NCBI GenBank assembly: GCA_027923505.1 | Contig: BROI01000017.1 | Coordinates: 186,001 to 250,000 of the forward strand | DNA length: 64,000 nt | Direction: 5' to 3' | DNA from: Mayamaea pseudoterrestris | Taxonomy: Eukaryota > Bacillariophyta > Bacillariophyceae > Sellaphorales > Sellaphoraceae | In this document: piece after piece, positions 26,209-64,000 of the stretch | Layout of the letters: each line of letters opens with the position of its first letter | Numbering within the stretch: position 1 is the first letter of the stretch | Notes under the pieces: generated by a model | Told to the model about the DNA's origin: nothing | What the model saw: only the letters and a program-made list of their open reading frames with translations | The model's database searches: none | Position numbers and translations under genes: made by a program

Positions 26209-27237
26209 ATGATGCGTTTCATTCATCTCATACTAGGAGCAGTGCTCAACTTTGCGCTCACTCTTCAAGCCCGTGCGGACGATGTAGACTTAACGCTGCC
26301 CTTTTGCCAATCGAGCGTCTTCGGGAGACCCATCCTTACTGGCAACTGCCGGCCTCGGTCCGGAAACAACCGATTGAGGAGTCGTCAACCGATTTCAACG
26401 GGTCAAAATCGTTATGGGAACAGACCGAGAGCACCATCCAACCAGATGATGTCGCGGCGAGGCAATCGCCCTCATCAGGGAACAAAGAATCGAGGATGCG
26501 GCGCAACCCCGTCACCCAGTCCTTCAAAACCTCCCGTTGCGCCTCCTACTGAAACACGCGGCCGAAAGACGCGACCGCCAACCCGATCCCCCACGGGTCG
26601 TCCCACCGGGGCACCCACTGCTAGCATCGCGACTGCACCTCCAACGCGACGCCCGTCCGCAGCTCCCAGTGCAAAACCTTCAGCTGCGCCTTCGCCTCGC
26701 GCTCGGCTCATCACTCCCGCTCCCACGCGAAAGCCGACGCAAGCTCCCGTTCGTCCGACGCCACCTCCAACAACCCGTCCGACGCCAACACCAACTTATG
26801 CCCCTTCAAGATCTCCCAGCGCAGCTCCAACAACTCCCTTATCGCGGTCTGGAGGGCAAAGATGCTGTGAGGACGCGAGGGACCCAACGGGCAATCCTTA
26901 CGGTACTCTTACGGGGACGGTGACGCCGCAGGACATTACCGCGTTTGATCCCTTTATTGTCAACATTACCTATGCTGAGAGCGGCATTACAATGTCCACC
27001 AGCGCTGGCTGTGGCGGCAGCAATTCGGATTCTGCCAGTTACTTGGTGATCAAGGAAGGGCGTTTATGCTGGACGCAGGGAATTGACTATGGAGTCTCGG
27101 CGAGTCCTGGGCCGTGCCGGAACAATACCATTTACTCCTTGGTGGAGGGAGTAAACTTTTGGCAGCTTGTTGGCGTCGATGAAAGCAATTTCGTGATGCT
27201 TGGGCAACTTGATCTTACATGTCTTTCAACATGTTAA
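26209..27237 (+). CDS. Secreted Pro/Thr-rich protein with conserved Cys C-terminus
   Basis: 342 aa, single exon. A signal peptide (MMRFIHLILGAVLNFALTLQARA) is followed by a basic segment and, from about residue 100 to 215, a low-complexity region of short APT/RPT/SPS units (PTRSPTGRPTGAPT). Such linkers are common in diatom cell-surface and wall proteins and are often glycosylated. The last 125 residues form a compact domain with eight or so Cys (RCCEDARDPTGNPYGTLTG, AGCGGS, LCWTQG, TCLSTC). I do not recognise that domain. The layout suggests an extracellular or wall protein; function is unknown. Confidence 0.7.
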   Translation: MMRFIHLILGAVLNFALTLQARADDVDLTLPFCQSSVFGRPILTGNCRPRSGNNRLRSRQPISTGQNRYGNRPRAPSNQMMSRRGNRPHQGTKNRGCGATPSPSPSKPPVAPPTETRGRKTRPPTRSPTGRPTGAPTASIATAPPTRRPSAAPSAKPSAAPSPRARLITPAPTRKPTQAPVRPTPPPTTRPTPTPTYAPSRSPSAAPTTPLSRSGGQRCCEDARDPTGNPYGTLTGTVTPQDITAFDPFIVNITYAESGITMSTSAGCGGSNSDSASYLVIKEGRLCWTQGIDYGVSASPGPCRNNTIYSLVEGVNFWQLVGVDESNFVMLGQLDLTCLSTC

Positions 27238-27599
27238 ATGTATACATGGAAGGATTCATCATGGTTTGAGCTACTTGTACCAGTGTCGCGCGCTAATGTC
27301 ACGCGTGCGTTTCTTAGGGGATGCTACATCAGAACTATATGAGAATGCAAATATATTATTTGATAGTTTACGTGGAAAATAGCAAGCACAATGCGCAGGT
27401 ATATAATCTGATTAGTTACAGCCTCAATAGCTAAATTTGAACGACATGCCTAAAGGTGAGTAACGAAACGACATCCGAATCGATTTTCGAAAGATACAGT
27501 TTGACGACCACCATGAGAAGATCCTCTCACGCGTTCTGCGCAATCATTTGCCAAATATCTCGTACACACACCCAAATTCCAGCAATATAAAGAAATATT
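27238..27599. other. Intergenic, no gene seen
   Basis: Between two plus-strand genes, AT-rich. It should hold the upstream 3' UTR and the F-box/FIST promoter. Confidence 0.4.
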
Positions 27600-29221
27600 A
27601 TGGATGATTGGAACTCTGACATTATGCTGAATGTAATTCAGTTTCTTAACGTTCGCGACTGCTCCAAACTTTCGCAGACGGCCTCTCGATACTTTTACTT
27701 GACGCGTCAGTTTCAAAAGCTAATTGGCCCGCAGCTTGTAGCGGCGACCAGTCATGATCCTGCAATAAAGACTCGGCAAAAGACGCCTGCCGAAGTTTGT
27801 CAAGAAGCCATTAGCAAAATACAGACTACCCCGAACCTTGCCTTGGCCTTTTCAAAGGGCAGCGGGTCGTTCAGCACGAGCCATTTGCCGGATGATATCG
27901 TTGCGATGGAGACAGTGGCGGAATCAATTCAGTGTCCGGAATTGATCACCACATTGAGTATAAGTCTCAAGCTAGCTTAATGCTTGCGAGCATGCCGCAG
28001 GCTAAGATATATCCCTTTTGCTTGGAATGCGAAGCTTTGGATTGCAGTCAAGGCGGCGTTGTCGACCAATTTTTGGCGCACTTAGCCACTACGGACGACT
28101 GGAAGGTTTTTATTATCAATGTCGCCGGCTCGGTGACTGGAGCGGGAGTCTTTGTAACGAAACTGCAGGCGCGATTTCCTGAAGCAACTATTGTTGGAGG
28201 CGTTTGCGACCACGGGGCAGTGAGTGTTCCAGTCGGCGCTAGCACAAAGGAAGACCTTGGCAAGCAAACTACTTCAAGTCTTGTCAAACTATATCGTTCT
28301 CTTGGAGGAACGACAAAGTTTACTGGATGTATGAAAGATGAAGTCGTCGAGATAATTTACAATCTCCAGCAATCCAAGAAGTTTCGCCTCGCTCGTATAG
28401 ACGAGGGTATATTTGGTATTGCCCTGACTGGACAGGTCCCATTCAGGTCTGTCGTTTCGCGAGGCGTGAGGAGCTTGATACATGGAGGTGTCCCTCAATC
28501 TGCAACAACTTACTACATCGAAGCTGCCGATGTTGTGCATCATGATGACGACGCGAACATGTTCGAGCGTGAAACCCCCTCATATCACTTAATTCGGAGT
28601 GTTCGAAATCAGGAAGATGGAAAGTTGTATACGCCAATTAACTTGATGCAGAAGTTTGGATTAGCTGATATGGTGGGAATTCGAAGGGAGAGTCATGATG
28701 GATTCGAGGTCCTACCGCCACATCAGGTTTCTTTTAGAATAAATGAGATCTTGCTCTTTTGTGACGGTCAATTACTCGACGAGCAATCTCTAGTTGGGGC
28801 GAATTTTGATTTGTTTCAGCTGCAGGCTGAGGCTTGCTGCTTAGATCTTGAAAGCAAAATGAAATTGCTGGAGGAACAGACAGTTGGCGAACAAATCCTC
28901 GGCGCCCTCATGATTAGCTGCAACGGACGGGGGCCATCACCTGGTAGCTTTATTCCAGAGGAAATGGCAGATGCCAGACGATTTGCAAATGTGTTTCCTA
29001 ATGTGCCTTGTCTTGGTTACTACGCAAACGGCGAAATTGGCCCAATGGCGTTGGCCGGTCGACGATCAATCTTTCAAACGGGTAGTGCCTGCGTGCAAGG
29101 CTTCACCGCTGTCTTCGCTCTATTCATCGTTCCACCAGTCGATCTTGGAGCTTTTGAACTGGATGATTCTGCGGAAAACGTGCATCTCTTCGTGAAAAGT
29201 GAGCTACATGGGTCGAAATGA
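27600..29221 (+). CDS. F-box plus FIST-domain protein (FBXO22-like), frame split
   Basis: Two overlapping frames. The first (27600-27980) encodes an F-box-like start (IMLNVIQFLNVRDCSKLSQT) and the beginning of a FIST sensor domain (NLALAFSKGSGSFS, CPELITTLSIS). The second, open from about 27932 to 29221, carries the rest (YPFCLECEALDCSQGG, FIINVAGSVTGAGVF, then a FIST_C part ending LGYYANGEIGPMALAGRRSIF). F-box plus FIST is the FBXO22 layout, an SCF ubiquitin-ligase substrate receptor. The frames differ by one base (-1) and no GT-AG pair in the overlap restores phase without removing conserved text. An unusual intron, a sequence error or a real break are all possible. Confidence 0.7.
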
Positions 29222-29278
29222 CAGGGAAATTGCTTCTGGCGGAAAATACATGACTACGTGTATACCTCCCAATTTATA

Positions 29279-30064
29279 TTAGTCTTCATCCATGGCATCT
29301 TGATCTTTCTGTATTTGCTTTTCTACCGTATACACAAGAGACTTGACCATGGCGCGGATTTGCTCGGGTGTCAATACTTCGCTGTTCGTAATAGCATTTT
29401 GAATCAAAATAATGTAGTCTGGTTTCTGTGAATGCATCCACAAGTAACCATTGACTCCAATCGCCACTTCAAACGGGAACTTGTTTTTAGATAATTCTGC
29501 AAGCACAAGATTGTTCGGAAGCAGCAACTGCCGAGCTAATCCAATGGAAATCTTTGTCAAAGTCCCTCCCTTCAACTCGCCGTAGGTTCCCTCGTTTGTC
29601 AGCCATTCCTTTCTCGGCACACCAGCATCATGCGGCCCCAAGACACAGGAAAGTTCCGGATCCAAGTAGCCATCAAATAGTTCACTGACTCGAAGATACA
29701 AGACTTGTCCCGGTTGAAACTGCGGCTTATTGCGCTTGGACGCTCCTTCAAACGACAAGTTGTTTAACACGGCATAGTTGGTTGCTCCAATTTCGAGCCG
29801 GTACAAGTCACCTCCGCCCCCACTGTCCGTACCCATGCGATCAATGACAACTCCAATGACTCGATCTTGTGCTTGAGGTAAGTAGCGCTTGCGGTTGTGG
29901 CGAATGTAGGCGTGCTTTAATGTCAAAATTAGAGTGCCTGGAAGCGTTGCGACGACTTGCTGTTGGTCGGTGACGGCGCTTAACGAATCACTGCGGCGAA
30001 GGCCGGGACCGAGCTGAAGGTTCGACGGAACGCTCACCGAATCGCCAGGTAGAAGGACTTGCAT
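29279..30064 (-). CDS. RRP40: RNA exosome subunit Rrp40
   Basis: 261 aa, single exon. This is a cap subunit of the RNA exosome. The N-terminal domain starts LLPGDSVSVP, the S1 domain has RVIGVVIDRMGTDSGG and YAVLNNLSFEGASKRNKPQF, and the KH-type domain has FPFEVAIGVNGYLWMHS, where Gly-x-Asn-Gly followed by a Trp is characteristic of the Rrp40/Rrp4 group. The SFEGASKRNKP stretch favours Rrp40 (EXOSC3) over Rrp4. Length fits. It ends 57 bp from the convergent F-box/FIST gene. Confidence 0.9.
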   Translation of the reverse strand: MQVLLPGDSVSVPSNLQLGPGLRRSDSLSAVTDQQQVVATLPGTLILTLKHAYIRHNRKRYLPQAQDRVIGVVIDRMGTDSGGGGDLYRLEIGATNYAVLNNLSFEGASKRNKPQFQPGQVLYLRVSELFDGYLDPELSCVLGPHDAGVPRKEWLTNEGTYGELKGGTLTKISIGLARQLLLPNNLVLAELSKNKFPFEVAIGVNGYLWMHSQKPDYIILIQNAITNSEVLTPEQIRAMVKSLVYTVEKQIQKDQDAMDED

Positions 30065-30243
30065 TATAAGCGGCAGCTGTATAACGGAGAGAAAGTGGGG
30101 CTACGCAAGTTGAGACGATGGAAAAAGTGATGGTCGTCGTTGAAAACGAATTTAGTGAGTCACTGTACGACAGGCTACTGTTTTCGCCATAGTTCTTGCA
30201 CGAAAGCCATCACTTCCATCATTCGACCATGGCGAAATGAAAA

Positions 30244-31461
30244 ATGAAGTCGCATCCATCGTTGGTCCTGGCGTACCTTTTTATAGTACAATTTTGCATA
30301 TTGATTTTAGTTGATGGCTTCTCATTGACAGCGAGTAATGGAAATTGTCGAACTACCGGCCCAACGACCCGGTTCGAGACAGTGACGACGTCCACATCAA
30401 CAACTGCATCTAAGACTAGCAAATTACACTTGCTATCACTACAATACACTCCCCCAAATGATCCTGGTACATTTAGTGAAGTAGTAACAACTGTCTGGCG
30501 ATGGAAGGATACGGTTCTCGGCAATGGACAAGACTTTTTCGTTCCAAAACCAAAGACATTGACGGCACTCCAAGATTGTTTGCTTGCCAAGACTTCAGTC
30601 GACGAAGTCGTTGTCATTTCCAACTGCGCTCGATTGGAACTGCTCATCTTTTGCTGCAATGAAAATATAGTCGACATAATTTCTCGTGAGCTACTGCGGC
30701 AGGTACAGTACCATCAGGAGCATCCTCACACGCTTCAGCTGGGCCTTGGTTGGGACATGCCGACTTGCATTGCTACAGCCCATCATCAGAGCACTCTCCG
30801 TGATAGCCAAGTAAATGAATTGTCGCGATACTGGACTCATTATACAGATCTGGCCGACATTACTCGCCACCTTTGCCTCATTGCATCCGGCATGGCGAAC
30901 CGCCCACGACGTCCAATTCGACCCGTTCCCTTTCAACCATTTTCCTCGCGCGACGCGCACGTGCTGCTGCAGCTAAAGCGAACTCTCGACGTATGTCGAG
31001 GCAGGCAGACGAGCATTTTGCTCAAGGGGGCGTTGGAAGCAGGCAAGGCTGTTCGAAATGATCGTATTGTTTCCGAGCTTCAATTGCTTCAGCAATACGG
31101 AACGGGCGATAACAAGTATTCGGTAGACCCACCCAGTCATGTTCTAGAGCTCGTCACGCAGGCCGCCATGAAGAAAGGGATCCAGCCTGCTATAGAAGTG
31201 ACACTGGAGCGACTGTCCATGGCGCTGGATGAAGAACGGACGCAACGAATCGTTCAACTTCGAAGGCAAGCGGACAATCTTGCGCTCAACGCCGACGAAA
31301 GTGCCTTTATCCAAAAGCGCTTGCACGAACCAACGATGCGTCTGCGAGAAGGAAGTTCTTTGCAGATAGATTCAGTCTTGGCAGAGCTACAAAGCGATTT
31401 AAAGCGCCTGCGAGGGAGACGCTTACAGCAAGCCTATAGCGACCAACGTATGACAGACTAA
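30244..31461 (+). CDS. Plastid-targeted glutamyl-tRNA reductase-like protein lacking the NADPH domain
   Basis: 405 aa, single exon. A signal peptide (SLVLAYLFIVQFCILILV) and DGFSLTAS form a diatom-type plastid presequence. The mature part follows GluTR: DEVVVISNCARLELLIFCCN (near 120-138) corresponds to the catalytic Ser-Thr-Cys-Asn-Arg site with Cys128 kept, FSSRDAHVLLQLKRTLDVC to the Glu-x-Gln-Ile-x-Gln-Val helix, and LLKGALEAGKAVRNDRI to the Gly-Lys-x-Val-Arg segment. GluTR should then enter a Rossmann domain of about 150 residues; here it runs almost directly into the dimerisation helices (IVQLRRQADNLAL, IQKRLHEPTMRLRE). Without NADPH binding it cannot be a normal reductase. A regulatory partner of GluTR is plausible inference. 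Confidence 0.7.
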   Translation: MKSHPSLVLAYLFIVQFCILILVDGFSLTASNGNCRTTGPTTRFETVTTSTSTTASKTSKLHLLSLQYTPPNDPGTFSEVVTTVWRWKDTVLGNGQDFFVPKPKTLTALQDCLLAKTSVDEVVVISNCARLELLIFCCNENIVDIISRELLRQVQYHQEHPHTLQLGLGWDMPTCIATAHHQSTLRDSQVNELSRYWTHYTDLADITRHLCLIASGMANRPRRPIRPVPFQPFSSRDAHVLLQLKRTLDVCRGRQTSILLKGALEAGKAVRNDRIVSELQLLQQYGTGDNKYSVDPPSHVLELVTQAAMKKGIQPAIEVTLERLSMALDEERTQRIVQLRRQADNLALNADESAFIQKRLHEPTMRLREGSSLQIDSVLAELQSDLKRLRGRRLQQAYSDQRMTD

Positions 31462-31791
31462 GCTTCAATCGTATCGCATTTGGTTTTGACCGCCAAGTCC
31501 GTGGCTGATGCAACGCCAATTATTTATTCGTACGAGAATGTTGCCGAGCCGTCTTTTCCAAAGCTGGAGCGCTCGCTCACCAGCACCTCTAAGGCCAAAG
31601 TGTGCAAACATTGTTTCGCCAGTTAGTCTTGACTGGCGCCACATGCAACGGCTGACTCGTCTTTGACAGAATGGGATCAAACGCACTGCTCCTGTCATGA
31701 TTCCAGGTTTGGATGCATGAGGTGAGCGGAAAATGATCAGGAGAAACCTCTCATAAATCGCGATCCGCCAAAGTTGCAACAAATTCTCATC
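31462..31791. other. Intergenic, no gene seen
   Basis: Between the GluTR-like and silaffin-like genes, both on the plus strand. A hydrophilic minus-strand frame here is not supported. It should include the silaffin-like promoter. Confidence 0.4.
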
Positions 31792-32769
31792 ATGCGCATC
31801 CAGCTTGCTCTACTCTTGGCCATTGCCTTTTCTGAAGATGCCGTTGCCCAACGGGGCATGCATCTTGGTCGGAAGATCCTCTTGGAATCGAGCACTTGGC
31901 GTTCTAGCCGAGAACTCATTGGTAACGGAACGCATGACTCGTCCCTTGTCCCTGCCAAAAAGGACGTTCCCAAAGCAGTGGAAGACGACGATGCCGACCA
32001 TACTGAGACGGTTCCTTTGCTGACGAAGAAGGAAGATTTCAAGGGAGTGGCGGATGTTTCCAAGGAAATCAATTCGACAAGTGCTCAGGAGCCAGTCATT
32101 CAGAAAGGTGGCGGCGGAGCTGATGACAAGGGACGTCGCTTGAAAGGATCCAAGGGAGACTCGAAAAGCAAAGGAAAGTCATCGAAGGGCTCGAAGAGTA
32201 GCAGTAGTGTCTCGGGAAGCCATAGCGGCAGCTCCAAAGGGCACTCGCATTCTTCCAGCAGCAAGAGCGCCTCTGGAAGCCATAGTGGTAGCTCCAAGCA
32301 CCAGAGCAGCAAGAGCGCCTCCGGAAGTCATAGTGGCAGTTCCAAGCATCACAGTTCGAAACATCACAGCAGCAAGAGCGCCTCTGGAAGCCATAGCGGC
32401 AGCTCAAAGCATCACAGTTCGAAACATCACAGCAGCAAGAGCGCCTCTAAAAGCCATAGCGGAAGCTCCAAGCATCACAGCAGCAAGAGCTCCTCCTCTA
32501 AAAGCCATAGCGGCAGCTCCAAGCATAGCGGCAGTTCTAAACATCACAGCAGCAAGAGTGGTAGTTCGAAGAGCCACAGCAGCAAATCGAAGGGAAACTC
32601 AAAGGATAGCAGCAAGGCGAAAAAGAGTTCCAAACATCACAGCTCAAAACATCATAGCAAGGCGAAAGGGAGTTCCAAACATCACAGCAGCAAGAGCTTG
32701 AGCATTCACCACAGCAAGGGCAGTTCGAAGGCTTATGGCAGCAAGGGCTCTGGCAGTGCACGTATTTAA
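31792..32769 (+). CDS. Silaffin-like secreted Lys/Ser/His repeat protein
   Basis: 325 aa from the ATG at 31792. A signal peptide (MRIQLALLLAIAFSEDAVA) is followed by an acidic propeptide-like region to about residue 105, then GRRLKG, an RxL site like the one processed in diatom silica proteins. From there to the end the protein is almost only Ser, Lys, His and Gly in units such as SKHHSSKSASGSHSGSSKHH. Silaffins share the signal peptide, the RxL processing site and Ser/Lys-rich repeats, in which lysines carry polyamines and serines phosphate; this chemistry precipitates silica. The high His content is unusual. Assignment rests on composition and layout, not on alignment. Confidence 0.65.
   Translation: MRIQLALLLAIAFSEDAVAQRGMHLGRKILLESSTWRSSRELIGNGTHDSSLVPAKKDVPKAVEDDDADHTETVPLLTKKEDFKGVADVSKEINSTSAQEPVIQKGGGGADDKGRRLKGSKGDSKSKGKSSKGSKSSSSVSGSHSGSSKGHSHSSSSKSASGSHSGSSKHQSSKSASGSHSGSSKHHSSKHHSSKSASGSHSGSSKHHSSKHHSSKSASKSHSGSSKHHSSKSSSSKSHSGSSKHSGSSKHHSSKSGSSKSHSSKSKGNSKDSSKAKKSSKHHSSKHHSKAKGSSKHHSSKSLSIHHSKGSSKAYGSKGSGSARI
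32200..32750 (+). repeat. Tandem coding repeat of the silaffin-like gene
   Basis: Imperfect units of 30-60 bp built from agcaagagcgcctc, ggaagccatagcgg, cagctccaagcatcac and similar blocks. The copies keep the reading frame and differ mainly by block number, which fits unequal exchange or slippage. Long open frames on the opposite strand in this stretch are by-products of the repeat. Confidence 0.8.
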
Positions 32770-33130
32770 GATGACAATGGCCATGGCCGGCTTCGATTCT
32801 TCAAGTGTCTTTGATTGACATTGAAACAATTCATTTGTGGCGCATGTTGCGTCTATCCACTATACTTTGCTAATATATTATAATTGGTCAAGTATATACG
32901 TCGTACGTTGCATAACTTTAGCGGTAAGATGCTACGATGCATCTGTAATGCAAAGACCTGCCGCATGCTAACGCTCAATTACATCGACGAATTTATAGTA
33001 AAATTATTTCATATGTACCACATACCGTAAACAACTACAATGACGGATCTTTGTCTATTTAGGATAAAGAATCGCTACGTAGTTGGTTAAAATCATATCA
33101 GGTGGCGGATTGCGCAGCTCTATAAAGCAA
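32770..33130. other. Convergent 3' ends, no gene seen
   Basis: AT-rich stretch between the silaffin-like gene and the PDI-like gene, tail to tail. Presumably the two 3' UTRs. Confidence 0.4.
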
Positions 33131-34116
33131 TTACAATTCGTCCGCCTTTCCGGAAGCACTCTTGCCCTTGAACGCCTTGACCGATTTCAAAAGACCAAGT
33201 CCAGCCTCCTTGACTTCCGCAAGCTTCTTGTCCTTGTCTTCCGAAAGCTTTTGGTAATCGGACTGGAGCTTCTCGACTGCCGCCTTGAACTCCTCCTCCG
33301 CCTTGGTAAGCTTGGTTTCCTCCTCCTTAATCTTGGAGTCAAGTGTGGCGTCGTCCAACTTCAAGTAGTCATTGATTTGCTTCTTCTTGTCGCTCTCGCA
33401 AAGGTCAATGTTGGCGGGCGAGCACACTGGCTTCAAGTTTTCCTTGGCAAACTTTTCCAAGTCCTTGAATGAGCGTTGGCCCTGGTAGTCCTCGAGGCTA
33501 TTGGGATCACCAAATTTCAACGTGGGGAATCCCTTGATGCCGTTTGCATCACAGAGAGACTTGCCCTCGGCGGTGCAGTCAACTTCGGCGACGAGACCAA
33601 CCTTGTCGCCGTCGAAACCTTCGGCGAGCTTCTCCCAGTCGGGTGCCATGCGCTTACAGTGGCCGCACTGTGATTGAATGAGAAAGAGCAAAATGGTTAG
33701 CGTCTATCGATTTCTTCACCGGTGAAACACTATTCAGAATGAATCTTATTGCGCCACTGGTCGCCAAATGATTGGACCCTTACGTGCAATGCCGCGCACG
33801 AGCGGCTGCTTCCGAGAATGCAACGAATGAAGGGTCATTGTGGCAGCTTGCGCCAGTATCAAGAGCTCCAGTAATAAGACGATGCAAGCCTTCAATTATT
33901 CACCGCATTTGATGCAACTAAACGATTCACTCGAGGCAGCAATGCAGCATTATCGGGTCATGAGACGTGCAGACTTACCCAAGGTGCAAAAAACTTGATA
34001 AAGACAGTCTTTCCATCCGTCATCTCCGCGTAGTTGTCCTCCGTGAGACTGACGACATCATAGGCACTAGCCGAGGCGCAAAGGGCGAGAAGAGCGACAA
34101 GAGAGTATTGCATCAT
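33131..34116 (-). CDS. ER protein disulfide isomerase-like, single thioredoxin domain
   Basis: Two exons: 34116..33979 (46 codons) and 33667..33131, phase 0, intron 311 nt (TGG|gtaagt, atcacag|TGC). The intron splits the active site exactly before the first Cys: FIKFFAPW joins CGHCKRMAPDW. The product is 224 aa. A signal peptide (MMQYSLVALLALCASASA) leads into one thioredoxin fold (to about residue 125, with GIKGFPTLKFG, cis-Pro included). A charged coiled-coil helix (KEEETKLTKAEEEFKAAVEK) follows, and the end is KADEL, an ER retrieval signal of the KDEL type. It should make or reshuffle disulfides in the ER. The single domain plus helical tail is shorter than classical PDI. Confidence 0.92.
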
Positions 34117-34584
34117 GGTGATTCGATTTATGTTCCTTTTGTTCAGCGGTGAAAATGACCAGTGCCGAAGGCCCCTTCGTGCATCGCAGCCGCTCGTCCG
34201 AAAGATCCTTCCACGTGCTACTCCTTCGCGGAGCGGGAATGAAAATGTGACGGTCTGATCGTTTTCACGACGACCAGCTAAGTAAGCATACTATCCCTAA
34301 CCTTATCAATTCAAAAAGCTTCGTTTCCATGACATTCCTCGTCACTGTCCGGTAGAAAGTACTCACTGGGACACATGCCATGACTTTTTGGTGTGGCTGC
34401 TGCACCCAGCAACACAACATCTCAACTTCGATCTGCCAGCACGACCAGCAAGCATCTAATATAGGACGGTGCTTTAGTCTCTGTTGCAACGGGTGACGAA
34501 AAGACCGACGCTTAGCTAGTCCGGAGGAAAGTGAATTCCACCTTTTCCTTGTATCATCGCGAATTCTCCAGCCGATAATCTATC
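34117..34584. promoter_or_regulatory. Divergent 5' region of PDI-like and NAK kinase genes
   Basis: Head-to-head intergenic stretch of 468 bp. No coding sequence is supported; both promoters are expected here. Confidence 0.35.
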
Positions 34585-63046: not shown

Positions 63047-64000
63047 ATGTCCTCGATGCTCCTCTCCTTTCGTGCTTCACGTCTACTAGTATTGAGTTTG
63101 CTTGGAACGTCTGCAACTCACCGTGTCGCTGCCGCCTTTGTCGTTCCAACAGTTTCTTCGGCGCTCGTCGGAAGCAGCAGCTTTTCTCGCTCGTATCCAT
63201 CATATTCCACTACATCAAGACTATTTTCTTCTCAAGAAAAGAAAGCAGAGGAACCGCAGCATACAATCAGTAGCGACAAGGAGCAAGAAATGTCAGTCGA
63301 ACTCTCGGAACTCCAAGCCGCCTACCAGACGCACCAACAAAACGCGCCCAGGCTCTCCCACGCGCAGGAGGTAAGAAGCCTTGTGGCGTACAATCACGGG
63401 TTTGCCGTACTGAGTACCTTTAGCAAGCACCATTCCGACTTTCCGGCGGGTGGCGTCGTGGCCTTTGCTCCCGATGAACAAGGAAGACCAATCATGGTCC
63501 TTTCCAACTTGAGCACGCACAAGCAAGACTTGAAAGTCAACAGCAAGTGTAGCTTGACAGTTGCTACCAAGGAATTCAAAGGATTGGCGGATGCCCGCGT
63601 CAATCTCATGGGGACTTGTCACGTTTTGGAGAGGGAAACGCCCGAGCACGCGCAAGCGAAGGAGTTTTTCCTCGCCAAGCATCCAGATAGTTTTTGGATC
63701 GAGTTTGGTGACTTTGATGTGATGCGAATGGATGTTGAACATGTTCGCTTCGTTGGAGGGTTTGCCCGCGTTGGAAGCATTTCTGCAGCCGACTATGCCA
63801 AGACGCAACCCGATTCCATTGCGGCGTTTGGCGGCCACGTGGCCAAGCACATGAACGACGATCACATGGAGGCAACCATTGCCATGGTGCAAGCCAATAT
63901 TCCAGGGATGAAAGATCCAAACAACAAGGTTACTTCTGCTGTCATTACATCGGTGGATTCCTTGGGCATGTACGTCAAGGTGACCCGCGAATCAGGCAGT
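63047..64000 (+). CDS. HugZ/GluTR-binding-protein-like plastid protein, cut by window edge
   Basis: Open frame from ATG 63047 to the end of the window (318 codons, no stop). The N-terminus is a signal peptide (SRLLVLSLLGTSA) followed by AAFVVPT, a clear Ala-Phe plastid motif. From about residue 110 there is a FMN-binding split-barrel domain of the pyridoxamine-phosphate-oxidase fold (LVAYNHGFAVLSTFSKHH, PIMVLSNLSTHKQDL, CSLTVATKEF), then a DUF2470-like segment (GHVAKHMNDDHMEATIAM). This two-domain order occurs in haem-handling HugZ proteins and in plant GluTR-binding protein, which docks on glutamyl-tRNA reductase at the thylakoid. The stop lies beyond the window. Confidence 0.82.
   Translation, partial: MSSMLLSFRASRLLVLSLLGTSATHRVAAAFVVPTVSSALVGSSSFSRSYPSYSTTSRLFSSQEKKAEEPQHTISSDKEQEMSVELSELQAAYQTHQQNAPRLSHAQEVRSLVAYNHGFAVLSTFSKHHSDFPAGGVVAFAPDEQGRPIMVLSNLSTHKQDLKVNSKCSLTVATKEFKGLADARVNLMGTCHVLERETPEHAQAKEFFLAKHPDSFWIEFGDFDVMRMDVEHVRFVGGFARVGSISAADYAKTQPDSIAAFGGHVAKHMNDDHMEATIAMVQANIPGMKDPNNKVTSAVITSVDSLGMYVKVTRESGS

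Follow-up and report, generated by a model that had tools for sequence, protein, structure and literature searches.

Can a relative of glutamyl-tRNA reductase (GluTR) exist in a diatom without its NADPH-binding domain and, if so, what might it do? According to passages of PMC4726326 and PMC6399207, GluTR is a three-domain protein whose reaction commits precursors to chlorophyll and heme and is under tight regulation, being the first committed step of that synthesis. The question is raised by a gene in a 64,000-nucleotide stretch of the genome of Mayamaea pseudoterrestris (the window). A preliminary description had presented its product as a plastid protein in which the GluTR landmarks follow one another in an unbroken frame, with the NADPH (Rossmann) domain between them deleted. 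The open reading frame is indeed intact, encoding 405 amino acids at exactly 30244–31461 on the forward strand, and the landmarks occur in that order, with SNCAR beginning at residue 126, GK at residues 267–268 and LHEPTMRLR beginning at residue 360 (Table 1).

Table 1 Features of the GluTR-like gene and its predicted product, in window coordinates
Feature	Position	Strand	Basis or remark
GluTR-like protein without NADPH domain, uninterrupted ORF, 405 aa	30244..31461	+	ATG start
Signal-peptide-like hydrophobic segment, residues 1-25, ending in VDG, followed by F26	30244..30318	+	simple scan without control
GluTR-like catalytic domain, residues 58-275	30415..31068	+	profile and model comparison
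SNCAR, residues 126-130, with Cys128 (E. coli C50) and Arg130 (E. coli R52)	30619..30633	+	alignment
His209, aligned with E. coli H99	30868..30870	+	alignment
Residues 220-247, family-specific Arg/Pro insert RPxRPxR and FxPFSSRDAHxLLQLKRT, the latter aligned to the GluTR GEPQILGQVK segment	30901..30984	+	alignment
Short linker in place of the GluTR NADPH domain, residues 276-297	31069..31134	+	profile alignment and spacing
All-helical spine/dimerisation-like domain, residues 298-405, with LHEPTMRLR (codons 31321-31347)	31135..31458	+	profile and model comparison

The family to which this protein belongs is easily overlooked, as the window protein lies under the Pfam cut-off. Searched alone, it matched Pfam GlutR_N with 20.1 bits (E = 5.9e-4) against a curated cut-off of 27 bits, and it scored 12.8 bits with the NCBIfam hemA equivalog TIGR01035, below the cut-off of 209.55. 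When 68 family members were searched against Pfam at E ≤ 0.01, GlutR_N was recognised in 48, GlutR_dimer (PF00745) in 6 and the NADPH domain (PF01488) in none, which bears out the description as a GluTR relative without that domain. Among eight more divergent members searched at E ≤ 0.1, four matched GlutR_N, three matched GlutR_dimer and two gave no match; in the divergent member P0147 GlutR_dimer was above its cut-off.

Profile comparisons located the missing part. Local alignment (hhalign) of profiles built from 80 family members and 81 GluTRs, with E-values that refer to a single comparison, placed residues 98–275 of the window protein on residues 39–176 of the organism's own GluTR (probability 97, E = 7.7e-11) and residues 308–371 on residues 346–429 (probability 86, E = 5e-6). 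A third local block of 13 columns had a probability of 0.1, and no credible block fell on GluTR residues 177–345. Other settings produced one long alignment (probability 98.9), with the linker scattered as small islands over the NADPH region. The sole match at E ≤ 1 in a profile search of the PDB was Arabidopsis GluTR1 (E = 0.0019), found as an N-terminal and a C-terminal piece; the single window sequence retrieved a chance coiled-coil match only. In the predicted structure, the dimerisation-type domain superposes on GluTR within one alignment, the match extending through GluTR residue 524. Sequence, profile and model comparison together show a diatom family with the GluTR fold minus the NADPH domain, in which the helical spine and dimerisation domain is retained, dimerisation itself being putative.

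The size of the gap, put at about 150 residues in the preliminary description, comes to 157: the Lys-to-His spacing is 93 residues in the window protein and 250 in the organism's own GluTR. From the Lys of GKxxR to the Pro of LHxP, GluTRs span 187–263 residues (median 243; 79 of 81 measurable) and family members 81–149 (median 95; 79 of 80 measurable). All 69 full-length members among the 120 relatives listed have a Lys-to-His spacing of 80–129 residues. Five transcriptome-derived members (P0020, P0113, P0124, P0138 and P0151) share the gap, and in P0080, also from a transcriptome, the spacing is 91. A skipped exon encoding the Rossmann domain, the outcome that would have undone the earlier interpretation, is excluded because these transcript-derived relatives show the same gap. 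A six-frame motif scan of window positions 27001–34500 revealed no GluTR Rossmann signature nearby, only three chance NRS matches. It is true that a single contig carries the gene and that no transcript comes from M. pseudoterrestris itself, as would suit a faulty gene model or a decaying gene. The intact reading frame, the gap shared by full-length and transcript-derived relatives, the six-frame scan and the retention in the window protein of every fully invariant residue nevertheless leave such an artefact practically ruled out.

A gap in the chain would also permit a split enzyme, with the NADPH domain supplied in trans by another polypeptide. At E ≤ 0.1 the genome contains 11 PF01488 matches, five of them over the cut-off. 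The two strong matches lie inside the GluTR loci; the third (38.5 bits) appears by eye to be ornithine-cyclodeaminase-like and the fifth ThiF/MoeB-like; these four yielded no candidate for a separate Rossmann subunit. Moreover, an intact GluTR is already encoded in this genome, and we consider a split enzyme highly improbable. This true GluTR, which the earlier proposal of a heterodimer presupposed, lies at C5:516731 (L001) in the genome of 30.6 Mb and 41 contigs. In a second GluTR copy 26 kb away (C5:542672, L002), the 3' part matches and the 5' part is degraded, owing either to recent duplication or to an effect of the assembly. No close paralogue of the window protein was found in this genome.

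The named relatives are diatoms. A precomputed PF05201 label is attached to 33 of the 120 relatives listed; JGI names P0008 after this domain, and others are called "hypothetical protein". A second clade from metagenomes (P0143 and P0145–P0149) is without the RPxRPxR insert and has ANCAR or GNCAR instead of SNCAR. Scanning viral contigs with the family gave 21 stretches that fitted a pattern, none of which was confirmed. The view that no protein of this kind had been described agrees with open-licence full-text literature, where no Rossmann-less GluTR was found among the matches listed. Passages of PMC11914136, on the heme pathway of P. tricornutum, mention one GluTR and none without a Rossmann domain, and no such protein is described in excerpts of PMC5115734, PMC7242693, PMC6399207, PMC4726326, PMC9992760, PMC11528492 and PMC6723447. 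The family is a conserved diatom group that has the GluTR fold minus its NADPH domain, which does not imply enzyme activity as GluTR.

Plastid targeting of the family is likely, judging from its presequences. In the window protein, the presequence looks plastid-type, in keeping with the initial assignment: the hydrophobic segment ends in VDG before Phe26, which we take to be an ASAFAP-like pattern of the diatom plastid type. This was scored by a simple rule of our own, neither SignalP nor ASAFind. Among 69 family members that begin with Met and extend far enough at the N-terminus, the same scan, run without a control, found a hydrophobic N-terminal stretch in 61, and in 56 an ASAFAP-like site as well under a loose rule that accepts Leu, Trp or Tyr beside Phe, with no shuffled control. 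The neighbouring genes encode a FIST_C protein (27932–29221), the exosome subunit RRP40 (29279–30064, reverse strand) and a thioredoxin-domain protein (33131–33691, reverse strand); they are unrelated, and the context therefore gives no functional clue. A further open reading frame at 31792–32769 (forward strand) begins with a segment resembling a signal peptide and contains an RRL motif and a long Ser/Lys/His repeat region (SSKHHSSK, GSHSGSSK), a composition that, in our estimation, recalls diatom silaffin-like biomineralisation proteins.

We sought the origin of the family in a tree of 26 of the 80 members and the 81 GluTRs (213 columns). The bacterial GluTRs were sampled as the best 80 of 573 matches to a query alignment (A2), one locus without a usable GluTR being dropped; a scan with the diatom GluTR alone as query had confirmed none. 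The sampled members form a single clade (98), set off by a branch of ~1.44 substitutions per site. In unconstrained trees, it falls next to one Armatimonadetes GluTR (L045), away from the own and cyanobacterial GluTRs, with support of 100 in IQ-TREE and 0.83 in FastTree (values as printed after re-rooting). This attachment speaks against an origin from plastid GluTR, though long-branch effects are likely. Grouping with the own and cyanobacterial GluTRs was not rejected by the AU test, with p = 0.23 in the presence of L045 and p = 0.56 without it, based on fast searches and 5000 resamplings, a number that IQ-TREE warned was too few; the constrained tree without L045 scored slightly better than the unconstrained one. 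When the 81 GluTRs were ranked by the family HMM, the two loci titled Cyanobacteria came first and second and the own GluTR 24th. The signal for plastid GluTR or another source is thus mixed. The NADPH domain was probably lost in the family lineage, by parsimony, because the long spacing occurs in every one of the 79 GluTRs in which it could be measured.

What, then, is left of the active site? We compared residues in the 80 family members and 81 GluTRs using E. coli numbering, with residue roles, including a glutamate pocket of T49, N51, S109, E114 and Q116, that we presume from the E. coli and M. kandleri enzymes. Cys128 (C50), noted from the start as kept, is Cys in all 80 aligned members, and both it and Arg130 (R52) are invariant in the 81 GluTRs and the family alike. 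The same holds for Gln243 (Q120; 80/80 and 81/81), while Lys268 (K150) is found in 78/80 family members and 78/81 GluTRs and Arg271 (R153) in 80/80 and 71/81. At the general-base position, His209 (H99), His is universal in GluTRs (81/81) and present in 67/80 family members, including the window protein, with Arg, Tyr, Glu or Ser in the other 13. The pocket has been rewritten: T49 is replaced by Asn, N51 by Ala and Q116 by His in all 80 members (Gln itself is found at Q116 in only 62/81 GluTRs), and E114 by Asp in 78, Glu being kept in two. A further switch, of G113 to Arg, likewise affects all 80. Ser at S109 occurs in 18/80 members versus 81/81 GluTRs, at a position beside an insert where the alignment is uncertain. 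As a consequence, glutamyl-tRNA is uncertain as a substrate, and its binding may have been lost.

The family thus keeps an active-site constellation within a changed pocket. Like GluTR (HemA, EC 1.2.1.70; PDB 4n7r, 5yjl, 5che and 1gpj), it has the catalytic-domain fold, the nucleophile Cys with an Arg close by, the Gln of QILxQV, a GKxxR helix and a helical C-terminal domain with LHxPTxxLR. Unlike GluTR, it is without the NADPH domain, has most glutamate-pocket residues replaced, does not universally keep the general-base His, and carries two extra motifs: WxWK[DE]xxLGxGxDFF, which precedes the Cys strand, and FxPFSSRDAH, which follows the His helix. The nucleophile motif is STCNR in GluTR and [SAG]NCAR in the family, and 148 of the 152 proteins fetched contain NCAR; the other four, of 231–266 aa, appear to be truncated at the N-terminus. 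The extended second motif, FxPFSSRDAHxLLQLKR (window-protein residues 230–246), is near-invariant, far better conserved than the aligned GluTR segment outside its Gly, Glu and Gln, and possibly forms a re-specified ligand site.

Passages of PMC7242693 and PMC6399207 describe GluTR as forming a Cys thioester, releasing the tRNA and then reducing the thioester with NADPH, and PMC4726326 mentions an esterase activity of GluTR that accommodation of NADPH would prevent. We propose, with a probability of roughly 45%, that the family consists of plastid-targeted thiol enzymes that carry out no reduction but form an acyl-enzyme, whose acyl group is then hydrolysed or transferred. These nucleus-encoded, probably plastid-targeted proteins combine GluTR architecture minus the Rossmann domain with a retained catalytic domain, spinal helix and helical dimerisation-type domain. 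With no hydride donor, GluTR-type reduction by the protein alone would not be expected, given the GluTR mechanism. The target of the invariant Cys would be an activated acyl group, for which the ester of an aminoacyl-tRNA is the simplest candidate. The thioester would then be hydrolysed (deacylase or esterase) or handed to another acceptor (transferase), the part of the reaction still open to GluTR in the absence of NADPH. The changes in the pocket suggest that the family differs from GluTR in its acyl group or its acceptor.

Of the two roles suggested originally, a heterodimeric brake on tetrapyrrole synthesis or separate chemistry with glutamyl-tRNA, we lean towards separate chemistry because the Cys is invariant; glutamyl-tRNA chemistry in unchanged form is made less likely by the altered pocket and by a His that is not universal. 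Counting against a thiol enzyme are the replacement of the H99 equivalent in 13/80 members, that of T49, N51, E114 and Q116 in nearly all, and the 37/80 members that reach only E > 1e-3 with the GluTR HMM. The lost His and rewritten pocket, together with the strictly conserved constellation R236, H239, Q243 and R246, would also suit a catalytically dead sensor, with a small molecule or an activated amino acid as the ligand of the Cys/Arg pocket and the nitrogen or tetrapyrrole status of the plastid as the signal. A binding site does not usually need a completely invariant nucleophile Cys, and we consider such a sensor improbable.

The main rival to a thiol enzyme is a regulatory partner of GluTR, which would tune 5-aminolevulinate synthesis by forming mixed dimers through the helical C-terminal domain or by binding GluTR regulators, and may sequester glutamyl-tRNA unconverted. 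Conservation separates the two poorly. Fully invariant columns number 19/214 in the catalytic and 2/92 in the C-terminal domain of the family, and columns conserved at ≥95% number 35/214 and 5/92, compared with 23/156 in the catalytic domain, 12/134 in the NADPH domain and 2/120 in the spine and dimer domain of GluTR. The C-terminal domain of the family is hence about as conserved as its GluTR counterpart. We dropped strong catalytic-domain conservation as an argument against a dimer partner; conservation alone decides nothing here because true GluTR shows the same distribution. A partner is further suggested by the retained dimerisation-type domain with its predicted superposition on GluTR, by the true GluTR in the same genome, and by the control of plant GluTR through proteins that attach to its dimerisation domain or elsewhere on it, as passages of PMC4726326 report. 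On the other hand, PF00745 was recognised in so few members, an invariant NCAR is more than a mere binding partner would require, and the genome already encodes DUF2470 split-barrel proteins. Overall, we view a regulatory partner as somewhat unlikely.

The family might share a role in plastid GluTR control with the plant regulators FLU and GluTR-binding protein, to which we know of no sequence relation. A gene at window positions 63047–64000 (forward strand), which runs off the end, encodes a split-barrel (PF13883) and DUF2470 (PF10615) protein with an AFVVP presequence, an architecture that we take to be of the plant GluTR-binding protein type. It lies 32 kb from the GluTR-like gene, and the linkage may be chance.

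A thiol enzyme could be specified further, more doubtfully still, as a deacylase or transferase for aminoacyl-tRNA or another activated acyl group in the plastids of diatoms and perhaps other ochrophytes, its pocket re-specified through WxWKD and PFSSRDAH. If true, this activity would employ aminoacyl-tRNA, or another activated acyl group, outside translation and independently of ALA synthesis. A conserved diatom family without the reductase domain but with an invariant Cys points either to a new control point of pigment synthesis in a major group of primary producers of the sea or to a reaction of activated amino acids that would be new.
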